Assembly: GCA_001314905.1 (NCBI GenBank)
Contig: LJZT01000011.1
Location: forward strand, 1 to 64,000
Length of the DNA: 64,000 bases
From: Phormidium sp. OSCR
GTDB lineage: Bacteria > Cyanobacteriota > Cyanobacteriia > Cyanobacteriales > Geitlerinemataceae
Reading direction: 5' to 3'
A program made the position numbers and the translations under genes. Of the stretch, positions 36,155-49,896 are shown one piece after another (position 1 is the stretch's first letter; every line of letters begins with the position of its first letter). Under the pieces are notes generated by a model. It searched no databases. It worked only from the letters and a program-made list of their open reading frames with translations, and was not told the origin of the DNA.

Positions 36155-37689
36155 TGGGACGGATTGTGTCGGTTCTCATGAGTCTCCTCAGCGGTATCCT
36201 GATGGGCTGTACCGTGGCCCCCTTGGAATGGTGGGGTTTGGGGTGGTTCGCCCTGGCCCCGCTGTGGTGGCTGATTGGGCAAAAAAACACTCCTGCTTGG
36301 CGCTTGGGGGCCGCTTGGGGTGCGGGATTTCATGGAACCGCCATGTTTTGGATTACCGGAGTTCATCCCATGACTTGGATGGGGGTTCCTTGGTTGGCCA
36401 GTCTAGCCATTGCGATCGCCTGTTGGCTATTCATCATCGTCTGGGGTGGCCTTCTCGTCGCCCTCTGGGCGCATCTCCAACAATGGAGTCCCAAACCTTG
36501 GGGGGCGAGGATTTTGATGGGTGTGGCCAGTTGGTGTCTCTTGGAAGTGTTGTGGCGATCGCTCCCCCTCTGGTGGTCCTCTCTCGCCTACAGCCAAAGT
36601 CCCCATAACTTGCCCATTTTACACCTGGGGCAACTCTCAGGAACCACCACCATTACCGCCGTCCTAGTGGCTGTTAACGGCTGTTGGGCGGCAGCCTTTG
36701 ACTCATTTGACCTATCTCGTCAAAAAGTCCGTCTCCCGGCGATTTTAGCCGCCGTTATCCTTCTGGGACTCTCCCAAGGACTGGGGGGCTATCTCTACAG
36801 CCGTCCCCTCAACGACGACCTCGAACAGCGTCTCACTGTGGGAATTATCCAGGGCAACATCCCCAACGAAATTAAACTCTATCCCGAAGGATTACGACAA
36901 GCCCTCGAAGGCTATACCCGAGGCTATGAAGAACTCAGTGATGCTGGAGTGGATGTAGTGATGACCCCCGAGACGGCGTTACCCGTGTTGTGGCAGGGCG
37001 ATCGCCTCCAATATAGTAATAGTCCCGCCGGGCATTTCTATCAAGCCCTTCGCGATCGCGGCGTTCCCGCCTGGCTAGGAACCTCACGGGGAACCCCAAG
37101 CCACTACACCAACAGCCTGTTAAGCCTCAGCGGAACCGGGGAAACCCTCAGTTACTACGACAAAGCGATTCTCGTCCCCCTCGGGGAATATATCCCCTTT
37201 GAATCAGTCTTAGGAGGAGTTATTAGTCGCCTGTCGCCCCTACAAGCTCAAATGATACCGGGTTCGGGGGACCAACTTCTACAGACTCCCTTCGGACCCG
37301 CCATTGTCAGCATTTGCTACGAATCCGCCTTTCCACAGCACCTCCAAGCTCAGGCCCAGCGGGGAGGTGAATTTTTCCTCAGTGCCGCCAACAACGCCCA
37401 TTATGCCCCCTCAATGCCCCGCCAACATCACGCTCAGGATGTGATGCGGGCCATTGAACTCGATCGCTGGGCCGTCCGGGCCACCAATACCGGCTATTCC
37501 GCCTTTGTCAATCCCCATGGCGAGACCCTTTGGATCTCGCCAATAAACCAGTACGCCACCCACAGCGAGAGGATTTATCGCCGCCAACGTCAAACCCTCT
37601 ATGTGCGTTGGGGAGATTGGCTAGTTTGGCTCTTAATCCTGGCGAGTCTCCCCAGTCTCTGGCCTCGCTCAAAAAAACCGCTCACATAA
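36154..37689 (+). CDS. lnt: Apolipoprotein N-acyltransferase
   Basis: This protein of about 511 residues has an N-terminal membrane part with several helices (LLSGILMGCTVAPLEWWGLGWF and following). From about residue 230 a nitrilase-fold domain follows. The catalytic triad is E273 (MTPETALP), K337 (YYDKAILVPLGEYIPFE) and C388 (SICYESAFP). A final membrane helix is near the end (WLVWLLILASLPSL). It acylates the N-terminal Cys of lipoproteins in the plasma membrane. It starts within the stop of the previous gene. Its 3' end overlaps the convergent AAA/WD40 gene by 21 bases. Confidence 0.95.
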   Translation: MGRIVSVLMSLLSGILMGCTVAPLEWWGLGWFALAPLWWLIGQKNTPAWRLGAAWGAGFHGTAMFWITGVHPMTWMGVPWLASLAIAIACWLFIIVWGGLLVALWAHLQQWSPKPWGARILMGVASWCLLEVLWRSLPLWWSSLAYSQSPHNLPILHLGQLSGTTTITAVLVAVNGCWAAAFDSFDLSRQKVRLPAILAAVILLGLSQGLGGYLYSRPLNDDLEQRLTVGIIQGNIPNEIKLYPEGLRQALEGYTRGYEELSDAGVDVVMTPETALPVLWQGDRLQYSNSPAGHFYQALRDRGVPAWLGTSRGTPSHYTNSLLSLSGTGETLSYYDKAILVPLGEYIPFESVLGGVISRLSPLQAQMIPGSGDQLLQTPFGPAIVSICYESAFPQHLQAQAQRGGEFFLSAANNAHYAPSMPRQHHAQDVMRAIELDRWAVRATNTGYSAFVNPHGETLWISPINQYATHSERIYRRQRQTLYVRWGDWLVWLLILASLPSLWPRSKKPLT

Positions 37690-40600
37690 CCCCTCAGTCC
37701 CCATCCGCTCCTGCGAATGCTGCAAATAATCCCGAATGCGATCGCAGCCAGCCTCCATCAAATCCACCGAAAGAATACTCTCTAAATCCCAGTGAATCGC
37801 CACACTATCCTGGCCCCCAGACACTAATCCCTGACCATCAGGACTAAACCCCAGCGTCAGCACCTCCGACGCATGACCCACCAGACTGATGACAAACTCT
37901 CCCTCCGGGGTATAAAGGTCAATCTTGCCATCCACCCGGCCCACCGCCAGCCAACGACCATCCCGACTCCAATCTAGGCGCGTTAATCCCTGGTCTTGAG
38001 CCAGATTCACCTGTGTCACGGCCTCCCCCTGTCGATTCCAGATGGTCAACCAGCCATCACGAGTAGTGGTCGCAATCTGTTGATGGTCAGGACTCACCGC
38101 AATCCCCCAAATTGCCCCCTGTTGACTATCAATCGTGACCCTTGGCGTTGCCTCAAAGCCAGACCGGCCCCCATCCGGGTCCAATCCCAACTCCCAGATT
38201 TTAATCACCCCATCGAGACTCCCCGAGACGAAATAAGACCCATCAGGACTAAACCTCAAGGCCCAAACCTGATCCTGATGGCCTTCAAGTTGACGGTGTA
38301 GCCGGTACTCCCCAGACTCATCGCGAGTCCAGACCTTCAGAGGAAACGAGACCCCACCGGAGACGAGCCAGCGTCCATCGGGACTATAATCCAACGCCAT
38401 AATTCCCACCCCATCCCCTTGCCAAGAGCGAGTGGACTCAGCCGCCAAATCCACCTGAATCATCTCTCCCCCCGAGGTTCCTGCCACAAGCCGTGGCTCT
38501 TGGGGATGAACCGCTAAACTATAGAAACGTCGGGAATTTAACTGTTGCCACTGATTGAGCCTCTCTCCTTGCGAGTCCCAAAGCTGAACATCTAACCCAG
38601 ACACCGTCACCAATTGTGGGTTAAGAGGCGAGGATTGAGGCAGATAGTCCGCTCCCCAAACTACATCCCCATGGCCTTGCAACACCTGACGAAAGGGATT
38701 TCCCACTTGCCATCGATTCAACATCCCATCTTCCCCGATACTGCCCACCTCAGTGCCCTCAGGACTAAAGGCGACACGCCGCAAATGGCTATCATGACCC
38801 TTTAACTGGTTTAACAGCGTTCCCTGACGGGACCAAATCTTCAGTTCCCGATCAACCCCAGCCGAGGCAAACCGCTGGCCATCAGGACTAAAGGCGACTG
38901 TGGTGACTTCCGCCTCATGATGAGTGAGAGTCTTGAGCAAACCCCGTTCAGGATGCCATAGACGGACTTGATGATCCGCGTACCCGGCGACAATTACCTC
39001 ACCATCCGGACTGTAGGCGATCGCCAACCCCGGTGCATCCACCTCATCAAAGCTTTGCAATAACTGGCCATCGGTTCCCCAGATTTTTAAGGTTCCATCG
39101 ACACTCAGGGAGGCGAACTGATGGCCCTGGGGATGAAAATCCACGGTTCGCGAGAAGGTTTCATGACCCTCTAGGACCTGTAACAGTTCTCCATCTTCAA
39201 CAGACCATAATCGTACCTTCACATCCCGGCCCACCGAGACCAGTTGACGACCATCCGGACTCCAGGCCACCTCTCCCACTTCGGCCCGATGATCCTTCAG
39301 CGTCTTCTCCAGAGTGCCGTCGACCGACCAAATGTAAATGGTCCCCTCAAAGGTGGCCACCGCTAAGAATTGACTGTCGGGGCTAAATTTGATGCTTTGT
39401 ACCGTCGAGGTATGGGGAAGAGTGTGCAGAAGGGTTCCATCTCGCCGCCAAATTTTAGCGGTTTGGTCAATGCTTGAGGTGGCGAAGAATTGACCGTCGG
39501 CACTGAAATCTAAGCCCAAGCTTAACTCGCTGTGGGCCTGAAGGCGGTGAAATTGATGATTGCCATACAAGGCTCGCTGTAAGCTTTCCTGAGTCTGTCG
39601 GTCTAAGTCCTGGCTCACCCCAGGGGGGATAAACTGGAGTTGTTGATAGTTCTCTCGCGCTTGTAAGGCTTGAATGAGGGCATCAAGTTGTTGATTGGAG
39701 GCAAAACTCCCTTCGGACGCGGCCATCATCGCCTTAACTTCACTCACCGCCGCCTGTTGATAGGCGCGGAAAGTCCCCATTCCCAGGGCGATCGCCCCCA
39801 CTAGGGCCACTGTTAACCCAGCCAATAAGCGACGTTGACGGCGCACACTTTGCCGCTCAATTTCCAGCCGCGCTTCGGCTTCTTCTAACCGCGCACGTTC
39901 GAGTTTTTCTTGAATGTCTCGCTGTTCTAAATCTTGGCTCGCACTGAGATAGCGATAATCTAAATCTCCGAGACCTTTCTGTTGCGTCCAGTTGAGGGCT
40001 TCTTGCAGGGCTTTGCCCCGTAACAATCGCGATTCATCTTGATAGTCAGATTCAATCCAAGCATTGAGCAATGAGGCATAGGGACGCAGACGATTGAGCT
40101 GTTCATCAACCCAATCTCGGTTAAAAACTTGATAGTAAATAGGGTTTTTGACCCGTAGATAGCCGTCTCGTTTTTCCACAATCCCCGAGAGAATCAACTC
40201 CGTTTGCGTGGGAGATTCCATAGCCGCAATCGAGGGCGCTTCCGAGGGAGACTGTTCTGAGCGCCACACTTGACGATAGAGACTCAGCAATTCTCCGACT
40301 CGTTTTTCGTCGTAGAGGAGGCGATCGCGAATAGTTTTAAGATGTTCCGGTTCGTCTTGGGCTTCCCAATGATGCAGGATTTTTTCTTGAACACAGGTAT
40401 CAATAAATGTTTGTGTTTCTTGTGCTTTAATCTGTCGTAAATAAGGCTTTTCTTGATATAAAATAAGTAGTAATTGACAGAGTTTTTGCATCAAAAATGG
40501 CTGTCCCCCTGTCCAATACAAAATATGCTCCAATGCCGCCATGGGTTGAGAAAACGTTGTAGCCAATCCCTCCACTAGAGGCGTCGCTTCTTGCCGCTTA

Positions 40601-41235
40601 AACCCCTGGAGAGCAATTCCTCGCCCGATATTAAAAGGAGTGCGATTTTTATCGGCAATTAATTCTCCCGGTGTCGCCACTCCAAAGAGAGCAAAACTCA
40701 AACGGCAATAGTCCGGGTTATCCGCTCGACGATTGTAGCAGCTACGAATTAGGGCAAAAAAATCATCCGTGGCGAATTTTAAAGCCAAAATACTATCAAT
40801 TTCATCAATTAAAATCACGACTGGCTGTTGAGTTTCTGCCAGCAGGACCTCCTCAATAAATTCTCCCAAACGAGCCGATGGTGGTAACTCCAGGCGATCG
40901 CGCCACCATGGTCGGAGATTCGTTTTAAGCTGAAACTGTTTACTGAGAATGGCGGCGATCGCCCCATACCATTGTTCCACATTGACCTGTTGCGTACCAA
41001 TGGCCGTCAAATCCAAAGCCCCCGGTATCACTCCCGCCTCCCGTAAGCGGGCCATCACCTGTACTCGCAAGCTGGATTTGCCCATCTGACGGGCATTAAA
41101 AACATAGCAAAACTCCCCAGCCAGCAGTCCCTGAAGCAGATTATCATCCGCCTGTCGCCGCACATAGGTTTGTGACGCAGGGGGAACACTGCCGCCTACA
41201 TGATAATTAAACCGAGGCTCAAGGGAAGACATCAC
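37669..41235 (-). CDS. AAA-like ATPase with membrane helix and C-terminal WD40 repeats (copy 2)
   Basis: This 1188-residue protein has an N-terminal AAA-like (AAA_35) domain. The glycine-rich FNARQMGKSSLRVQV is Walker A (about residues 47-54), and VVILIDEIDSILALKFATDDFF is Walker B (about 136-146). SFALFGVATPGELI and FNIGRG follow. A charged helical linker (LEQRDIQEKLERARLEEAEARLEIERQ) leads to one predicted membrane helix at about 467-490. From about 570 to 1160 there are many WD40 units (LDFSADGQFFATSSIDQTAK, LRFSPDGSYFVSGSLDG). With a single helix the ATPase and the propellers would lie on opposite sides of the membrane. It is paralogous to the next gene upstream, 40 bases away. Confidence 0.88.
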   Translation of the reverse strand: MMSSLEPRFNYHVGGSVPPASQTYVRRQADDNLLQGLLAGEFCYVFNARQMGKSSLRVQVMARLREAGVIPGALDLTAIGTQQVNVEQWYGAIAAILSKQFQLKTNLRPWWRDRLELPPSARLGEFIEEVLLAETQQPVVILIDEIDSILALKFATDDFFALIRSCYNRRADNPDYCRLSFALFGVATPGELIADKNRTPFNIGRGIALQGFKRQEATPLVEGLATTFSQPMAALEHILYWTGGQPFLMQKLCQLLLILYQEKPYLRQIKAQETQTFIDTCVQEKILHHWEAQDEPEHLKTIRDRLLYDEKRVGELLSLYRQVWRSEQSPSEAPSIAAMESPTQTELILSGIVEKRDGYLRVKNPIYYQVFNRDWVDEQLNRLRPYASLLNAWIESDYQDESRLLRGKALQEALNWTQQKGLGDLDYRYLSASQDLEQRDIQEKLERARLEEAEARLEIERQSVRRQRRLLAGLTVALVGAIALGMGTFRAYQQAAVSEVKAMMAASEGSFASNQQLDALIQALQARENYQQLQFIPPGVSQDLDRQTQESLQRALYGNHQFHRLQAHSELSLGLDFSADGQFFATSSIDQTAKIWRRDGTLLHTLPHTSTVQSIKFSPDSQFLAVATFEGTIYIWSVDGTLEKTLKDHRAEVGEVAWSPDGRQLVSVGRDVKVRLWSVEDGELLQVLEGHETFSRTVDFHPQGHQFASLSVDGTLKIWGTDGQLLQSFDEVDAPGLAIAYSPDGEVIVAGYADHQVRLWHPERGLLKTLTHHEAEVTTVAFSPDGQRFASAGVDRELKIWSRQGTLLNQLKGHDSHLRRVAFSPEGTEVGSIGEDGMLNRWQVGNPFRQVLQGHGDVVWGADYLPQSSPLNPQLVTVSGLDVQLWDSQGERLNQWQQLNSRRFYSLAVHPQEPRLVAGTSGGEMIQVDLAAESTRSWQGDGVGIMALDYSPDGRWLVSGGVSFPLKVWTRDESGEYRLHRQLEGHQDQVWALRFSPDGSYFVSGSLDGVIKIWELGLDPDGGRSGFEATPRVTIDSQQGAIWGIAVSPDHQQIATTTRDGWLTIWNRQGEAVTQVNLAQDQGLTRLDWSRDGRWLAVGRVDGKIDLYTPEGEFVISLVGHASEVLTLGFSPDGQGLVSGGQDSVAIHWDLESILSVDLMEAGCDRIRDYLQHSQERMGTEGLCERFF

Positions 41236-41275
41236 AATTGAGAATCAAAGCTTAACCTTAAGCTAACGCCTGAAA

Positions 41276-44200
41276 TCAGTAATCCTGACATAATGACGAA
41301 GTTAAATTAATCTCAGCACTGGTATGTAAATAATCTTGAACTCGCCGACAGCCATACTCCAATAGATTAACCGAGAGAACAGAATCTAAATTCCAACGGA
41401 TGGCTAAACGGTCTTCACTACCCGAGACCAAGAAGCGACCCTCGGGACTGAACGCCACGCTTAAGACGAGCGCCTCATGGCCAGTCAAGCGGCTGACAAA
41501 CACACCGGCTTCAGTATACAGATCGATATGATTATCCGTACGACCAACCGCAAGCAACTGACCATCGGGACTCCAAGCCACCCGCGTTAAGCCGTTGTTT
41601 TCCGAGAGCGTCAAGGTAAACACCTCCTCTCCTTGTCGCGTCCAGACCTTGAGGAGACCATTGCGGCTGGCCGAGACGATGCGATCGCCATCCGGACTCA
41701 CCGCCACCCCCCACACATCACTCTGATCCCCTCGTAACACCCGTTCGGGAACCTCAAGAAAGCGCCGATTTTCCTCAGCCAAGTCCGACTCCCACCCCCA
41801 AATCCTCGCCGTTCCATCTAAACTGCCGGAGACCAAATACGAGCCATCAGGACTAAAGGCCAAATCCCAAACCCTGGCCTGATGACCCTCCAGAATCTGA
41901 TGGAGGACGTAGGCCCCTGACGTATCCTCCCTCCAAACCTGAATCTGCTTATTATCCCCACCAGAAACTAACCAACGTCCATCAGGACTGATATCCAGGG
42001 CAAAAAGCGAGAACTCATCCTCTTGCCCTTGTCGGGTGATCGTATTGTTGGTTAAGTCAATTTGATGAATCTCTCCCCCAGCATCACTTACAAATACCTG
42101 AGGTCGATGGGGGTGAAACACGACATCATACAACGCCTGATCGGCTAGATTGCTAAATTCCTGGATTAACCGGCCTCGCTCATCCCACAGATATAGATCT
42201 TGTCTCGATAGGCTAGCCAATTGGGAGGCGATGGGGGACGAACTCGGGGCATAGGCGACCCCCCAGATCACATTACGATGGCGCGGTAGCTTTTGCCGAA
42301 AGGCATTCTCCACCTGCCACAACCGCACCAGTCCATCGTCCCCAGCACTGGCCACCTCCGTCCCCTCGGGGCTAAAGGCAACCCCCCGTAGGCCACTGTG
42401 ATGACCCTGCAAACTGGTGATTGGCGTTCCATCTCGGGACCATAGCTTCAGTTGGCGGTCGGCAGACCCCGAGGCAAATTGGGAGCCATCGGGACTAAAG
42501 GCCACGGCTACCACTTCCGACTCATGTTCACTCAGGCTCCGCAGTAACTGGCCATCCCGCCGCCAAATTCGCACCCGATTATCGCTATAGCTACCGATGA
42601 GTTCCTCGCCATCGGGACTATAGGCAACGGACCAACCGGAACTGGAGTTATCTTCTAAGCTACGACGTAAGGTTCCGTCGGTTCCCCAGAGTTTAATCTG
42701 TCCATCGAGACTAATTGAGGCAAATTCCTCCCCTTGCGGATGAAAATCTACATCCCACACGGGGGCTTGATGGCCCGTTAGCGTCCGCAGAAGTTCCCCA
42801 TCCCGAGACCAGAGCCTGACGGTTTTATCGCTGCTGGCCGAGACCAGTTGCCCTCCATCGGGACTCCAAGCCAGACGCCAAATGGGTCCGTCATGGCCCC
42901 GGAGGGTTCGTTGCCATTCCCCCGTCACCGACCAAAGATGAATCTGACCATCGAGGGTGGGAATGGCCAGCAACTGACTATCGGGACTAAATTGGACGCT
43001 GTAGATGCTAACGCCATACTCAAAGGTCTCCACCAGGGTTCCGTCTCGTCGCCAAAGTTTGGCCGTCCCATCGGTTCCGGAACTGGCAAGCCATTGTCCA
43101 TCCCGGCTGTAGTCAACGCCTAACGCGCCCCCGGCATGGGCCTGCAATCGATTAAATTCATGGTTGCCCTGGATGGCTTTTTCGAGGGCTTGGCGGCTGT
43201 CCTGGTCGAGTTCTTGGCGAACATCATCGCTGATGAACCGCAGTTGTTTAAAATTATGGCGCCCTTGCAGGGCCTGAACTAAGGCATCGAGCCGTTGGTT
43301 GGAGGCGTAACTGCCTTTGGAAGCGGCCAGGACAGCTCGAACTTCACTAAGGGCAGCTCGTTGATAGGCGACAAAGGTGACACTACCTAAGCCAATGGCC
43401 CCGATGAGGGCAACGGTTAAGACCCCTAAGAATTGTCGCTGACGGCGGACATTCTGTTCTTGAAGTTTTAAGAGTTGTTGGGTTTCAACGAGACGTTCTT
43501 GTTCGAGTTTCCGTTGGGCTTCTTGCCGCTCAAACTTGAGGTTTTGTTGGATTTCTTGTTGTTCGAGGTCTTGACTGGCGGTGAGATAGCGATAGTCGAG
43601 ATCGCCGAGGCTTTTGCGTTGGGTCCAGTCGAGGGCTTCTCGCAGGGCTTGACCTCGCAACAGTCGCGATTGATCTTGGTAGTTGGAGTCGACCCAGGCG
43701 TTGAGGAGTGGGGCGTAGGGACGCAGGTGATCGAGTTGGTAGTCAATCCAAGCGAGGTCAAAGACTCGTTCGTAGATGGGGTTTTTGACCCGTAGGTAGC
43801 TGTCGCGTTTTTCGACGACTCCTGAGAGGAGAAGTTCGGTTTGGGTCGGGGATTCGTTGGCGGGAATGAGGGGATGTTGGGATTGGACTTGTTCGGCTTG
43901 CCAAACTTGACGGTAGAGGGTTAGGAGTTGGCCGACTTTGCGTTCATCATAGAGGAGGCGATCGCGGATGGTTTTGAGATGCTCGGGTTCGTCTTGGGCT
44001 TCCCAGTGATGCAAAATGTGTTTGTGAACACAGAGGTCGATGAGGTTTTCGATGCAGTTGGGGTCATCGGTATCGAGGAGTTTTTGGCCGTCATAGTGAC
44101 TGACGACTAGGTTACAGAGTTTTTGCATGAGAAAGGGTTGCCCCCCCGTCCAATGGAGAATCCGCTCTAAGACCTGTTGGGGATGAGGGATGATTCCCAT

Positions 44201-44887
44201 GAGTCCGGCGGCTAATGGGGCGGCTTCTTGGGCTTGAAATCCGTCGAGGTAGATGCCCCGTCCGATGTTGAAGGGGGTGCGGGTTTTGTCGGCGATGAGT
44301 TCGCCGGGAGTGGTGACGCCAAAGAGGGCAAAGCTCAACCGCCGACACGCAGGACAGTCGGCTCGCTGGTTATAGATGTTGCGGATGAGGGCAAAAAAGT
44401 CATCGGTGGCAAATTTTAGGGCCAGGATGCTATCAATTTCATCGATGAGAATGACTAGGGGGGCTTGGGTTTCGCTGAGGAGGACATCTTCGATAAATGA
44501 GCTTAGACGAGCAGCCGGTGGCAGGTCTAAATGCTCTCGCCACCATTGGCGGAAATTGGTTTTAAGCTGAAACTGTTTGCTGAGAATCGCCGCGATCGCC
44601 GCATACCATTGTTCGACGTTGACTTGCTGGGTGCCGATGGCGGTCAGATCTAAGCCGCCGCATTGCACTCCCGCTTGACGCAGTTGAGCCATGACCTGCA
44701 CCCGCAGGCTCGATTTGCCCATTTGTCGGGAGTTGAAGACGTAGCAAAACTCTCCGTCGAGAAGTGCTTGCAAAAGATTGTCATCGGCCGGTCGCCGCAC
44801 ATAGGTCTGAGATTCAGGCGGGAGAGACCCCCCCACTTGATAGCTGAATTGGTGTTGCGGTGAGGGTTGGCTTGGAGTTAGGGTCAT
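41276..44887 (-). CDS. AAA-like ATPase with membrane helix and C-terminal WD40 repeats (copy 1)
   Basis: This 1203-residue paralogue of the downstream gene has the same plan. Walker A is in FNSRQMGKSS (residues 51-60) and Walker B is LVILIDEIDSILAL (about 144-155). A conserved SFALFGVTTPGELI comes next, then a Gln/Glu-rich coiled linker. One membrane helix (LGVLTVALIGAIGLGSVTFVAYQ) lies at about 484-506, with WD40 repeats from about 585 to the end (VAFSPDGSQFASGSADRQLK). The start is 3 bases after the stop of the HTH-AAA gene, so they form one operon. Two near-equal copies in tandem suggest duplication with possible division of sensing specificity. Confidence 0.88.
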   Translation of the reverse strand: MTLTPSQPSPQHQFSYQVGGSLPPESQTYVRRPADDNLLQALLDGEFCYVFNSRQMGKSSLRVQVMAQLRQAGVQCGGLDLTAIGTQQVNVEQWYAAIAAILSKQFQLKTNFRQWWREHLDLPPAARLSSFIEDVLLSETQAPLVILIDEIDSILALKFATDDFFALIRNIYNQRADCPACRRLSFALFGVTTPGELIADKTRTPFNIGRGIYLDGFQAQEAAPLAAGLMGIIPHPQQVLERILHWTGGQPFLMQKLCNLVVSHYDGQKLLDTDDPNCIENLIDLCVHKHILHHWEAQDEPEHLKTIRDRLLYDERKVGQLLTLYRQVWQAEQVQSQHPLIPANESPTQTELLLSGVVEKRDSYLRVKNPIYERVFDLAWIDYQLDHLRPYAPLLNAWVDSNYQDQSRLLRGQALREALDWTQRKSLGDLDYRYLTASQDLEQQEIQQNLKFERQEAQRKLEQERLVETQQLLKLQEQNVRRQRQFLGVLTVALIGAIGLGSVTFVAYQRAALSEVRAVLAASKGSYASNQRLDALVQALQGRHNFKQLRFISDDVRQELDQDSRQALEKAIQGNHEFNRLQAHAGGALGVDYSRDGQWLASSGTDGTAKLWRRDGTLVETFEYGVSIYSVQFSPDSQLLAIPTLDGQIHLWSVTGEWQRTLRGHDGPIWRLAWSPDGGQLVSASSDKTVRLWSRDGELLRTLTGHQAPVWDVDFHPQGEEFASISLDGQIKLWGTDGTLRRSLEDNSSSGWSVAYSPDGEELIGSYSDNRVRIWRRDGQLLRSLSEHESEVVAVAFSPDGSQFASGSADRQLKLWSRDGTPITSLQGHHSGLRGVAFSPEGTEVASAGDDGLVRLWQVENAFRQKLPRHRNVIWGVAYAPSSSPIASQLASLSRQDLYLWDERGRLIQEFSNLADQALYDVVFHPHRPQVFVSDAGGEIHQIDLTNNTITRQGQEDEFSLFALDISPDGRWLVSGGDNKQIQVWREDTSGAYVLHQILEGHQARVWDLAFSPDGSYLVSGSLDGTARIWGWESDLAEENRRFLEVPERVLRGDQSDVWGVAVSPDGDRIVSASRNGLLKVWTRQGEEVFTLTLSENNGLTRVAWSPDGQLLAVGRTDNHIDLYTEAGVFVSRLTGHEALVLSVAFSPEGRFLVSGSEDRLAIRWNLDSVLSVNLLEYGCRRVQDYLHTSAEINLTSSLCQDY

Positions 44888-44890
44888 CGG

Positions 44891-46216
44891 CTAGTCCGCA
44901 AAGTATTGGCGATAGAGTTCGCAACTGGGGACGGCCAGACGTTCTTTGAGGGTGATGGCCCCAAGGCCTTGAAGGCGATAGGCACTCTGATGGGGCAGTT
45001 CAATGCCGGCGGGGTTACGGGCCACCTGTTGCATGGCTTCGAGGAGACCTGGGTTCTGTTCCATCAGTTGCAGTTGTCGTCTCAGGTAGCTCCTGAAAAT
45101 TCTGTTGTGGGCGATCGCCTCGCTGGATAAGTCCTCGATGCTCAACTCGCCCTGAGCCAGATAAAACAAACAGAGTTGGCTTAAGTAAGGATGACCCCCG
45201 ACGAGGGTAAACATGGCCTGACTATAGGCTCCGGGAGGATTGAGACCGTAGCGACTGGTGAGTTGTTCAACTTCGACGAGGTTAAAGTTCGGTAATTCCA
45301 CCAGTAAGCCCACGTTAAAGGGGGATTGATGCAAGGTTAAGGGCAGCCAGACTTCGGTGGAGTGGATAATCGCTAACCGCAGGTTGGTCCAGATGGCTCG
45401 TTGTTCGAGGCCGTAACGCCCTTGTTCGTACCACGATCGCAGCATCCCAAAGAAGTCTGTGGCCACCTCTGGGTACGCAAACAGTTCGTCGAGTTCTTCG
45501 ATGACCAGTAATAATGGGGTTGGCGCGGCGGGTAACAGATAGGTTTCAAAGTAGTCTGAACAACTGTAACTGCTGCCAAATAAGTCATCCCAACGACTGG
45601 CGAGTTCGTTGGGCAGACCTAAGTCTTTGGCGACTACGGCACAGAACCATTGCAAAAACCGATCTGGGTCTTGCAGGACTTGACAATCTAAGCCCTGGAG
45701 GTTAACAACGGAAGTACGCAGGCCGCGATCGCGGGCATGACTCAGGGTTTGCGCCATCAATGAGGTTTTGCCGAATTGACGGGGAGCCTTGATGCGAATT
45801 AGCGCTCCCGGTTTGAGGATTTCTTGGGCGCATACTTGTTCGATCTCACTACGGTATATGTAAAAGGGTGAGTCCACGGGTAATTGTCCTTTTAGCGGTG
45901 CTTGTTGTAAGGCCGCAAAATCGGTTTCTGGAGAGTTTTGCTCCGGGTTGATGACATCGTGGTGACCCATTTTGAGGTTAAATGCCTCAAAATAGGAGTC
46001 TAAGGTTTGCCAATCGACGGGCTTCTGCCGACGACGGAGTTTGGTCAAGGTGTTCGAACTTAGTCCGGTTCGTTCTCCGAGTTGTTCTAAGGTGTAGGGC
46101 TTCCCCTGGTTGTCCTGGATACATGATAAATGCTCAGCTGCCTGTAACCGCTGCCAGCCCTGGGAGCTAAGAATTAAACCACGTCTTCGTTTGTTGGGAT
46201 GCGATCGTTCCACCAT
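44891..46216 (-). CDS. HTH-containing AAA-like ATPase, first gene of the AAA/WD40 operon
   Basis: This 441-residue protein has an N-terminal helix-turn-helix-like part at about residues 41-80 (YTLEQLGERTGLSSNTLTKLRRRQKP). The AAA-like (AAA_35) domain follows, with Walker A IKAPRQFGKTSLM at residues 142-154 and Walker B LLLVIEELDELFAY at about 237-250. It has LRLAIIHSTEVW and GGHPYLSQLCL motifs as in the two WD40 partners. It lacks the membrane helix and WD40 part. The usual interpretation for such HTH-AAA genes is a regulator or adapter for the linked AAA proteins; that is inference. Its upstream region carries four 10-bp repeats and a repeated TTAAGATA motif. Confidence 0.85.
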   Translation of the reverse strand: MVERSHPNKRRRGLILSSQGWQRLQAAEHLSCIQDNQGKPYTLEQLGERTGLSSNTLTKLRRRQKPVDWQTLDSYFEAFNLKMGHHDVINPEQNSPETDFAALQQAPLKGQLPVDSPFYIYRSEIEQVCAQEILKPGALIRIKAPRQFGKTSLMAQTLSHARDRGLRTSVVNLQGLDCQVLQDPDRFLQWFCAVVAKDLGLPNELASRWDDLFGSSYSCSDYFETYLLPAAPTPLLLVIEELDELFAYPEVATDFFGMLRSWYEQGRYGLEQRAIWTNLRLAIIHSTEVWLPLTLHQSPFNVGLLVELPNFNLVEVEQLTSRYGLNPPGAYSQAMFTLVGGHPYLSQLCLFYLAQGELSIEDLSSEAIAHNRIFRSYLRRQLQLMEQNPGLLEAMQQVARNPAGIELPHQSAYRLQGLGAITLKERLAVPSCELYRQYFAD

Positions 46217-46672
46217 GATAGGTCTTCAAAGATGTCAGGTTTTACACTGAAGGGTCGGGACCCCATTCTATATCTTAACAAGCCTGATTTATCTCTTATC
46301 TTGAGTCTGGGGGGTTGATTAAGATACGTTACTGCTCACTCCTGAATCTCGCCTGAACTTAAAATTCAAGGATTCTATAGCAAGCGAAGGTTCAGTTAAG
46401 ATACTCTTTGTTCGGCAAGGTTAGGCAAGGTTAGGCAAGGTCAGGCAAGAGCAACCACGAGGGATTACCCCTAAGTCTGTGTCCTAGGTGTCCCTGCTAT
46501 GACTCTAGTTCCCATTAGCGGATCGCCTCGGGTGGAACAACCTTTCTTGACACCTCATCTCTAAATTTTACCAAGTCACAGATTTCAGAAAATCCCTGAA
46601 TATTATGACTAAGTTTCCTGACAATTGGGATTAAGCTGCTTTCTTAAGTTGATATCGTTACTAGACTCAGTT
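46217..46672. promoter_or_regulatory. Upstream region of the AAA/WD40 operon with phased 10-bp repeats
   Basis: No gene is seen. Four 10-bp units lie in tandem at 46411-46450 (TTCGGCAAGG, TTAGGCAAGG twice, TCAGGCAAGA). They are spaced at one helical turn, so the same face is presented each time. TTAAGATA occurs at 46319-46326 and 46396-46403, and inverted at 46271-46278. These could be protein-binding sites for the HTH-AAA protein or another regulator; this is an inference. Confidence 0.5.
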
Positions 46673-47379: not shown

Positions 47380-49896
47380 ATGTGGGACATTTTTAAGCAA
47401 CTGATACAAACCATCTTTTCACCCAGTCAGAGCTATATGCCTCATGGCCACTGTTATCTCTGGCAAACCCCCTTGGTGGGTCTTCATGTCGTGAGTGATG
47501 CTCTGATTGCTTTAGCTTACTTCTCGATTCCCATTCTCTTGATTTACTTCGTGGCCCAGCGTCGAGATATTCCCTTCCTAAGGGTGTTCTACCTGTTTGG
47601 TGCATTTATTGTCCTCTGTGGTCTGGGACATCTCTTAGAAATTTGGACCCTCTGGTATCCGGCCTATTGGTTGTCAGGAGTTGAACAGGCGCTCACCGCT
47701 GTGGTCTCCTGCTATACGGCTGTTTCTCTGGTGACACTGCTGCCTCAGTTTCTGTCTCTGAAAACCCCGCAACAATTGGAAACGGTCAATTCAGTCTTGC
47801 AAGCGGAAGTTGAGCGTCGGCGAGAGATTGAAGATGAACTGCGACAGGCGAATCAATCCTTAGAAGCGCGAGTGCAGGCCCGTACCGCTGAACTCGAAGC
47901 CAGTCAGGCCCAATTGCAAGAGGCGCAACGGATTGCCCATATTGGCAGTATTGATTATGATCCCCATAGCGGTGAAATTCACGCCTCAGAGGAGATTCGC
48001 CGCATCTATCGCCTCGATGATACAGGCGATCGCCCCTTACGGCTCAAAGACTTCCTCAAGACCATCCATCGGAGCGATCGCGCCGCCTGGTGGCAGGCCC
48101 AGCACCGATTACTCGATAGCGGTGAATCCCTGCACCTAGAACATCGCTTGCAGTTCCCCGATGGGGAAATTCGCTATTTAGACATCAAAGGGGAAGCCCA
48201 ACGAAGTCCCTCGGGTGAGGTGGTTCAACTGTATGGGGTGGCGATCGATATTACCGAACAAAAACGGGCAAAACAGCGGTTAGAACGACAGATGCAACGC
48301 ATCCAACTCGTGGCCAAAACCTTGAAACAAGTCTGGTCTTCTCTCAACTTTGAGGAGGTCATGCAAGTCATTGTCGATGAGGTTCGTCAGTTCCTCAACA
48401 TTGAGCGAGTTGTGATTTACCGCTTTCAACCCGACTGGAGTGGGTATGTCGTGGTTGAGTCCGTGTCAGACTCCAATTTAGCCATCCTCGGTCGACATTT
48501 TGAGGATGACTGTTTCCGTCACGACTATATCCACCAGTACCAACGGGGACGCATTCGAGGCATTGAGAACGTCGCTACCAGCAACCTCCCCGACTGTCAC
48601 AAGGCCTTACTGAAGGGGATTCAGGTCAAAGCCAATTTAGTCTTACCGCTGCTGTGGCACCCCCACTCCTTTGACGATGAACCGGAACTGTGGGGCCTGT
48701 TGATTGCTCATTCTTGTCAGCAAACCCGGCCCTGGCCCGAGCCGGAAGTGGAGGTGTTGCAACAACTGACGGTGCAACTCGGTATCGCCTTGCGTCAGCA
48801 TAATCTGATTAGATCCCTGAAAAGCGAATTAGCAGAACGCCACCAGATTGAAGCGGCGTTGCGGGATTCCGAAGCCGCTGAACGCCAAAAAGCTGACAGA
48901 CTCCATCGAACGCTGCAAACCCTACAACAAACTCAGGCAAAACTCGTGCAATCAGAAAAAATGGCCTCGTTAGGACAACTTGTGGGAGGTCTGGCCCATG
49001 AAATTAATAATCCCATCAGCTTTATTTACGGTAATATCAGTCATGCTCGTGATTATAGTGAGCAGTTGTTGGACTTGATTTATCTCTATCAGACCTATTA
49101 CCCGGAAACCCATGAGGCGATCGCCGATCTCCTCGAAGCTATAGATTTAGATTTTGTCCGGGAAGATTTCCCGCAACTACTCGATTCGATGGCAGTCGGT
49201 GCCGATCGCATTCGGGATATTATCCTCTCCTTGCGCAATTTCTCTCGTTTAGATGAGTCAGAGCAGAAAGTCGCCGATATTAACGCCAGTATCGAGAGTA
49301 CCCTAACCATGATTCAGGCTCGTCTGTCTCAAGCCGCGTCGCGATCGTCGATTGAGATGATCAAGGAATATGGAGACTTACCAAAAATTCGGTGTTATCC
49401 AGGACAACTCAATCAGGCGCTGTTTAATATCCTCAATAATGCCATTGATGCCTTAGAAGACCGTCTAAGACAAGAGCCGACCTTTAAGCCAGAATTACGG
49501 GTGACAACGGAGTTTTTGGCATCTCGAAGCCACGATGAAACAGTGAAGATGGAAGGGATTGAAGGAGGCCAGCCGCAGCTGCATGAAAAAGCGCTTGAGG
49601 GGGCGATCGTGCGGATTAAAATCACCGACAACGGTCTGGGAATCCCCCAGGATTTAGTTGAACGCATCTTCGACCCTTTCTTCACCACAAAACCCATTGG
49701 CAAAGGGACGGGACTGGGGCTATCAAATGCCTATCAAATTATTGTAGAACAACATCAAGGAGCATTTTACTGTCAACCCCATTCTCCCTCAGGCACTCAG
49801 TTTATCATCGAGTTACCGGCCCACCAATTCTCATCAGATTCTGAGGAGTTGAATGATCTTCGTGACCGGTTAGCCCAATTACAGCAGTCTGGGTAA
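47380..49896 (+). CDS. Ethylene-receptor-like sensor histidine kinase (ethylene-binding domain, PAS, GAF, HisKA, HATPase)
   Basis: This is an 838-residue protein. Residues 25-125 hold membrane helices with the ethylene-binding signature: D40, Y47, I50, P51, I77, C80 and H84 (in FIVLCGLGHL). Each equals the Arabidopsis ETR1 residues D25, Y32, I35, P36, I62, C65 and H69 with a constant offset of 15; C65 and H69 bind copper there. A coiled segment follows, then a PAS domain (about 185-300, ending GVAIDITEQKRA). A phytochrome-type GAF domain (about 310-475) comes next, then a HisKA domain with H540 in LAHEINNPISF and an ATPase domain ending TDNGLGIP and GKGTGLGLS. No receiver domain or response regulator is adjacent. 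It likely senses ethylene or a related small ligand. Confidence 0.9.
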   Translation: MWDIFKQLIQTIFSPSQSYMPHGHCYLWQTPLVGLHVVSDALIALAYFSIPILLIYFVAQRRDIPFLRVFYLFGAFIVLCGLGHLLEIWTLWYPAYWLSGVEQALTAVVSCYTAVSLVTLLPQFLSLKTPQQLETVNSVLQAEVERRREIEDELRQANQSLEARVQARTAELEASQAQLQEAQRIAHIGSIDYDPHSGEIHASEEIRRIYRLDDTGDRPLRLKDFLKTIHRSDRAAWWQAQHRLLDSGESLHLEHRLQFPDGEIRYLDIKGEAQRSPSGEVVQLYGVAIDITEQKRAKQRLERQMQRIQLVAKTLKQVWSSLNFEEVMQVIVDEVRQFLNIERVVIYRFQPDWSGYVVVESVSDSNLAILGRHFEDDCFRHDYIHQYQRGRIRGIENVATSNLPDCHKALLKGIQVKANLVLPLLWHPHSFDDEPELWGLLIAHSCQQTRPWPEPEVEVLQQLTVQLGIALRQHNLIRSLKSELAERHQIEAALRDSEAAERQKADRLHRTLQTLQQTQAKLVQSEKMASLGQLVGGLAHEINNPISFIYGNISHARDYSEQLLDLIYLYQTYYPETHEAIADLLEAIDLDFVREDFPQLLDSMAVGADRIRDIILSLRNFSRLDESEQKVADINASIESTLTMIQARLSQAASRSSIEMIKEYGDLPKIRCYPGQLNQALFNILNNAIDALEDRLRQEPTFKPELRVTTEFLASRSHDETVKMEGIEGGQPQLHEKALEGAIVRIKITDNGLGIPQDLVERIFDPFFTTKPIGKGTGLGLSNAYQIIVEQHQGAFYCQPHSPSGTQFIIELPAHQFSSDSEELNDLRDRLAQLQQSG

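Follow-up and report, generated by a model that had tools for sequence, protein, structure and literature searches.

A two-protein, putatively membrane-spanning AAA_35 system in cyanobacteria as a possible split relative of STAND/NLR switches

RESULTS

An operon of three AAA_35 genes

The window analysed here is a stretch of 64,000 nucleotides from Phormidium sp. OSCR, in which three minus-strand genes, designated A, B1 and B2, lie in that order (Table 1), at the coordinates given by a first-pass annotation of the same DNA. The spacing also proved to be as first described, with 3 bases between A and B1 (44888-44890) and 40 bases between B1 and B2 (41236-41275). The AAA-like core that this annotation had seen in all three proteins was identified as Pfam AAA_35 (PF14516), scoring 392 bits in A, 112.5 in B1 and 110 in B2 against a cut-off of 27, and the three are the sole AAA_35 genes of the 4.69-Mb genome. 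Its assignment of a helix and propellers to the two large proteins was confirmed as well: WD40 repeats were detected by Pfam only in B1 and B2, and A lacks a helix. Downstream of the operon lies lnt, converging on it, and upstream of A is a divergent gene (47380-49896) for an ETR1-type (ethylene-receptor-like) histidine kinase (HK), which adjoins A in the sampled loci of the genus. The genome is close to those of Phormidium willei BDU 130791, Phormidium sp. SL48-SHIP and Geitlerinema sp. P-1104, all of which we take to belong to the genus Sodalinema. A and B copies occur together in 7 of 7 genomes of this genus; scattered genes were looked for and not found, and the trio thus stands as a conserved linked unit.

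Table 1. Features of the A-B1-B2 operon and its upstream region in the window
Feature	Position	Strand	Remarks
Gene A, putative output/effector-side protein	44891..46216	(-)	441 aa; HTH and full-length AAA_35 STAND-like NTPase; without membrane helix
Cro/C1-type HTH head of A, about residues 13-85	45962..46180	(-)	HTH_26 match and model helices
AAA_35 NTPase of A, residues 109-440	44897..45892	(-)	Walker A RQFGKTS, Walker B LLVIEELD, GGHP motif
Gene B1, putative membrane sensor-side protein	41276..44887	(-)	1203 aa
AAA_35 NTPase of B1, residues about 14-392	43712..44848	(-)	B subfamily; Pfam and subfamily profiles
Predicted transmembrane helix of B1, residues 489-507	43367..43423	(-)	Kyte-Doolittle 2.21; basic NVRRQRQ directly N-terminal
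WD40 propellers of B1	41393..43090	(-)	Predicted extracytoplasmic; without cysteine
C-terminal tail of B1	41276..41392	(-)	Conserved cysteine pair C1180, C1200
Gene B2, second putative membrane sensor-side protein	37669..41235	(-)	1188 aa; B1 paralogue
AAA_35 NTPase of B2, residues 9-387	40075..41211	(-)	Pfam, profiles and model
Predicted transmembrane helix of B2, residues 470-488	39772..39828	(-)	Kyte-Doolittle 2.0; RRQRR before span
WD40 propellers of B2	37786..39555	(-)	About 59 predicted strands, about 14 blades, two propellers
CTTAAGN5ANCTTAA element	46631..46648	(-)	HK-A intergenic region; kept in seven genomes; candidate operator

The HTH_26 match in A reached 21.2 bits, slightly below the Pfam cut-off of 22, and the structural model of A (mean pLDDT 83) contains four helices (residues 18-35, 43-50, 54-62 and 69-78) that fit a Cro/C1-type HTH; by clustering, this head type is common to 18 A proteins of our sample. 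The Walker A motif reads RQ[FM]GK[ST]S in A, B1 and B2. Walker B has DE in B proteins and EE in the A proteins of the genus (7 of 7 sampled; about 45494-45499 in the window). Across 80 sampled A proteins, only 4 have E as the first acidic residue of this motif. With EE in place of the usual DE, hydrolysis may be altered in the genus.

In the model of B2 (pLDDT 84.6), the NTPase is followed by a coiled-coil helix (424-462), a long helix (475-512) that contains the hydrophobic span, further helices up to residue 558 and then the propeller strands. Identity between B1 and B2 is 72% for the NTPase but drops to 50% for the propellers. The tandem duplication of the large member that had been proposed was borne out, in that B1 and B2 are paralogues and 2 to 4 B copies are found in the genus.

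A and B belong to separate AAA_35 subfamilies

AAA_35 is present in 265 of 293 genomes of the order and was absent from 14 control genomes (0/14). Plasmid records with AAA_35, among the matches listed by name, were cyanobacterial by name, and A/B pairs occur on such plasmids. Profiles for A and B, built from sampled cyanobacterial loci, divided 205 proteins into 105 of A type and 100 of B type, with a score gap of at least 87 bits for each of them. A and B share about 26-27% identity, and their profile alignment spans 325 columns, running through the winged-helix part. As judged from these profiles, A and B are two distinct, anciently separated subfamilies rather than one family with and without a propeller.

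The two types also differ in where the NTPase is placed. In 95 of 101 intact A proteins, no more than 60 residues follow AAA_35, and in 83 of 86 B proteins no more than 60 precede it; a long C-terminal part is present in 75 of these B proteins. A Pfam search of 80 A proteins detected TIR_2 (25), CHAT (7), nucleotide cyclase (7), GGDEF (3), protein kinase (3), trypsin (2), EAD1 (1) and EAD4 (1) domains, together with several LuxR, sigma-70 or Cro/C1 HTHs. In A, the HTH, TIR, CHAT or kinase domains occupy the N-terminus, and a few A proteins have a cyclase or GGDEF domain on the C-terminal side of AAA_35, as read individually in L164 and L196. WD40 propellers are present in more than half of the B proteins; GAF, CHASE2, TPR, GUN4 and COP23 domains were found in the 37 others, with kinase domains in a minority. 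We read this split as output on A and input on B, a division suggested by domain content and not absolute: one B protein (L184) has a histidine kinase core, and the N-terminal region is long in three of the sampled B genes.

The NTPase of A resembles STAND proteins

Structural comparison aligned the A model over 277-310 residues to STAND and related chains, with Z scores of 16-21. The archaeal ATPases SSO1545 (Z 20.9) and PABY2304 (20.2) matched best, and the NLR and apoptosome NTPases RPP1 (17.3), NRC4 (16.8), CED-4 (16.8), WRR4A (16.5) and Roq1 (16.1) were also found; a Foldseek search with A returned Avs3 as the second match and Roq1 as well. ORC/Cdc6 proteins also score well against the model, so that Z alone is no discriminator, and it is the GGxP motif (GG[HQ]P, nearly invariant across the sampled proteins) and the architecture that favour a STAND assignment. 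As modelled, then, A has a fold of STAND type, with a C-terminal winged-helix arrangement and the GxP motif. A sequence search of solved structures gave no relative of B, and for A only short RecA P-loop matches. The solved structures of SSO1545 and PABY2304 are single chains without membrane helix or propellers, and the function of these ATPases is uninformative for A and B.

Like Apaf-1, CED-4 and the plant NLRs, the A/B proteins combine a P-loop NTPase with a winged-helix-like C-terminal part and the GxP motif, and have an output head at one end and a repeat sensor at the other. The classical tripartite layout places head, NTPase and repeat sensor on one chain, whereas here head and putative sensor are divided between two paralogous NTPases, A and B, and the sensor is predicted to lie across a membrane.

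The helix of B behaves as a membrane span

A hydrophobic span of 19 residues (Kyte-Doolittle value of 1.6 or more over 19 residues) separates NTPase from propellers in 45 of the 51 B proteins of WD40 type, and basic residues flank it on the N side; among the six without a detected span, the L111 sequence is masked by Ns. Since proteins outside the cytoplasm tend to avoid unpaired cysteines, cysteine content was compared in 45 intact WD40-type B proteins, 40 with the helix and 5 without it. In the helix-bearing proteins, the propeller body contains 0.079 cysteines per 100 residues versus 1.50 in their own NTPase part, a 19-fold depletion. Propeller bodies are free of cysteine in 28 of these 40, and in 36 of them the tail carries a pair of cysteines about 20 residues apart, as expected for a disulphide. 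In contrast, the propeller bodies of the five proteins without the helix have 0.99 cysteines per 100 residues and 2-9 cysteines each, none being cysteine-free (Mann-Whitney p = 4e-5, a significance inflated by kinship among the 40 helix-bearing proteins). The depletion persists outside the genus (0.116 per 100 residues in 26 proteins).

The helix could instead be a buried oligomerisation helix that is not inserted, in which case A and B would all be cytoplasmic, and the five WD40-type proteins that manage without a helix would be in line with this. We consider this highly improbable, as the depletion is confined to propellers behind the helix, 28 of 40 propeller bodies there are cysteine-free and 36 of 40 proteins keep the tail pair, against 2-9 cysteines in each of the five propellers lacking the helix, and the basic residues sit on the N side of the span. 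Judged from sequence features, the helix of B is thus very probably membrane-inserted. Evidence to the contrary was looked for and not found, and helix position, charge and cysteine distribution back the earlier suggestion that sensor and ATPase lie on opposite faces of a membrane.

A and B genes are paired and their partners co-evolve

In loci chosen by A alone, a same-strand B gene lies within 1 kb after A in 17 of 40 and 27 of 42 cases (44/82), and the reverse order, B then A, in 0 and 2 of the same sets (2/82). We estimate that chance would place A and B side by side in about one percent of cases or less, since a genome of about 5 Mb has between a handful and a few dozen AAA_35 genes. No linked B was found for 33 of 102 A genes, so that linkage is common, not universal; some B genes, too, are solitary (L205-L207).

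B NTPases group in their tree by the output class of the A gene beside them: the TIR/CHAT label required 4 changes versus 17.3 when shuffled, and none of 500 shufflings was as low. Two pairs of one genome lie in different parts of the tree according to class, as seen at L183 (both pairs from G115) and at L197 and L198 (G131). In a mirror-tree comparison, cognate partners gave r = 0.86 versus 0.66 with partners swapped inside genomes, 2 of 2,000 swaps being as high; as partners were swapped only inside a genome, species history is controlled. When the genus' divergent second pair was left out, r was 0.829 versus 0.803 (26 of 2,000 as high). These data indicated that cognate A and B partners co-evolve, and matched partners are what is expected of proteins in contact. 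The helix of B was present in 16 of 19 HTH-type pairs versus 13 of 23 TIR/CHAT pairs, a trend only (p = 0.09).

The second AAA_35 pair of the genus (L192-L194, in G009, G038 and G080) is absent from the window genome. Its B protein ends in a vWA-like segment (ILIDQSATMD), for which no Pfam match was found.

Propellers are exchanged between B proteins at a fixed site

Within the genus, A occupies a fixed site with the same kinase flank, and with lnt where the locus extends that far. The number of B copies varies: the window genome and two relatives have 2 each, G080 has 3, G038 likewise has 3 (one truncated) and G009 has 4 (one broken). The broken or truncated copies are found in single-contig genomes (L189:3628-8271 and L190:6488-9553).

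Comparison of B copies revealed that identity in the NTPase and in the propeller are uncoupled. NTPase identity is 94% and propeller identity 62% between the B2 proteins of P. willei and SL48-SHIP; the corresponding values are 85% and 54% for the window B1 and the P. willei B1, and 86% and 48% for the G009 copies Bb and Bd. The opposite is seen for the P. willei B1 and G009 Bb (NTPase 71%, propeller 84%) and for G009 Bb and G080 Bb (70% and 83%). The identity steps fall near the helix, at about residues 450-540. With the NTPase data, monophyly of the two propeller classes was rejected (lnL differences of 181 and 116; AU p = 1e-7 and 4e-8), and with the propeller data that of the NTPase groups was rejected (115 and 59; 1e-4 and 1.5e-5); the groups were picked after the identities had been seen, so that the AU p-values are optimistic, the likelihood gaps being large nonetheless. 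These results demonstrate that propellers have been exchanged between B NTPases, with switch points near the helix.

Assembly errors in repeat-rich drafts could in principle mimic both the exchange and the differences in copy number, the window, P. willei and SL48-SHIP genomes all being drafts. This is very unlikely, for exchange is seen also between assemblies of one or two contigs (G009 and G080).

Two further candidates were rejected. Codon-level signs of positive selection on the propellers were absent, with dN/dS of 0.08-0.32 inside the propeller classes indicating purifying selection. The near-identical B2 propeller of the window and G009 was considered as a propeller-specific exchange, and it was found to belong to a long stretch of low divergence on the lnt side. 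In the synonymous comparison of the window with G009 (15607-37689), pS is mostly 0.07-0.31 left of B2 and 0.39-0.64 right of A, and the low-divergence tract looks like a long recombination stretch ending inside B2. Propeller exchange stands without this case, on the internal replacement in B1 and the tree conflicts.

DISCUSSION

A split, transmembrane relative of NLR/STAND switches

Topology, fold and co-evolution lead us to infer ligand sensing by B and contact between B and A, and we think it reasonably probable that the operon encodes a split, transmembrane relative of NLR/STAND proteins, with B1 and B2 as membrane sensors and A as their soluble output partner. B1 and B2 would be single-span proteins with a cytoplasmic NTPase and two seven-bladed propellers outside, in the periplasm or the thylakoid lumen. 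A ligand bound by the propellers would switch the NTPase of B, and the switched B would contact A and cluster it through matched NTPase-NTPase surfaces. Such clustering would then change the state of the A head, which is TIR, CHAT, kinase, nucleotide cyclase or GGDEF in sister systems and an HTH here. Gene regulation would be the likely output in this operon, preferred only because the A chain carries no other output. TIR-bearing A proteins also have an HTH-like segment ahead of the TIR, so the HTH could be an adaptor and not a DNA reader.

If the HTH is an adaptor, the same machinery could serve abortive infection or allorecognition, with cell death or dormancy as the output upon contact with phage or rivals. 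The TIR, CHAT, trypsin and EAD1/EAD4 domains of sister A proteins, a STAND fold near Avs3 and plant NLRs, the presence of A/B pairs on plasmids, and changes in copy number and propeller at a fixed site, which resemble recognition loci, all speak for such a role. Nevertheless, A, B1 and B2 contain no toxic domain, the propellers evolve under low dN/dS inside one class, and outward propellers would meet envelope-stage or external signals, unlike the cytoplasmic phage proteins met by Avs. Moreover, a search for defence genes near the trio, proposed in the first-pass annotation, had a negative outcome: none of 23 window neighbours matches a PADLOC family. PADLOC on A, B1 and B2 themselves gave only a WD40-driven HEAT-ARM_XIII match and a weak HTH match, with no good match to a defence family, and phage records yielded no relative of the A/B proteins. 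The few Cas12f/TnpB-like, Cas6 and restriction matches among 63 neighbours at other A/B loci lack a background rate and were not used. We therefore regard abortive infection or allorecognition as unlikely here; a conflict role for A-B1-B2 is plausible, and defence is unsupported at the locus.

The operon might also be a housekeeping sensor-regulator of envelope or environmental stress, with propellers that watch the periplasm or lumen and an A protein that regulates a few genes, with no conflict involved. The HTH head, the core locus in 7 of 7 genus genomes at the same chromosomal site between the ETR1-type kinase and lnt, purifying selection on A (dN/dS of 0.05-0.11) and the trend towards a helix in B of HTH-type pairs are all consistent with this; against it, exchange and loss of propellers would be unusual for a housekeeping sensor, and B copies are truncated in two single-contig genomes. 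On balance, we find this somewhat doubtful.

Relation to known systems

Earlier work has covered STAND proteins, sensor/helper NLR pairs and conflict systems of cyanobacteria; the two-protein AAA_35 version of NLR-type switches is widespread and apparently undescribed. In the plant NRC network (PMC9975940), two related NTPases likewise share sensing and executing, as the matched pairs would here; in contrast, A/B proteins are bacterial and predicted to be transmembrane, with no head on B and no sensor on A. Avs antiphage proteins share the STAND NTPase, but each combines effector and sensor in a single cytoplasmic protein, whereas A/B proteins have no known defence activity. The vWA-MoxR-VMAP ternary conflict systems (PMC7159879) are also multi-gene NTPase systems of cyanobacteria with HTH, TIR, EAD and peptidase-type domains; they differ in that the A-B1-B2 operon has no MoxR or vWA gene and its NTPase pair is AAA_35.

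In the open-licence papers searched, PF14516 was not found, and descriptions published elsewhere could be missed; AAA_35 was met once, as an accessory domain of sigma factors, and "AAA-like domain" with cyanobacteria returned only a variant table and unrelated papers. This literature gave no account of AAA_35 pairs, of an output/sensor division between AAA_35 paralogues or of membrane-crossing versions.

Should the pair function in the way proposed here, it would be a bacterial counterpart of sensor/helper NLR pairs in which, unlike in classical NLRs, the signal is carried across a membrane. It would also offer one framework for many cyanobacterial genes annotated merely as "AAA-like domain-containing protein", and propeller exchange makes a clear prediction on recognition specificity. 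More tentatively, cyanobacteria might possess a large and so far undescribed family of NLR-like receptors made of two proteins, with sensing (B) and output (A) assigned to separate paralogous STAND NTPases. Many of these receptors would span the membrane, and their outward propellers, exchangeable at fixed loci, would form a repertoire for recognising phage, rivals or kin.

Conserved elements upstream of A

The CTTAAG element in the HK-A intergenic region is possibly a site for A, a candidacy predicted from its conservation. The same region holds a second conserved element, the box CTTGTTARRATRTAGAAT, at about 46258-46282, some 40-65 bases upstream of the A start.
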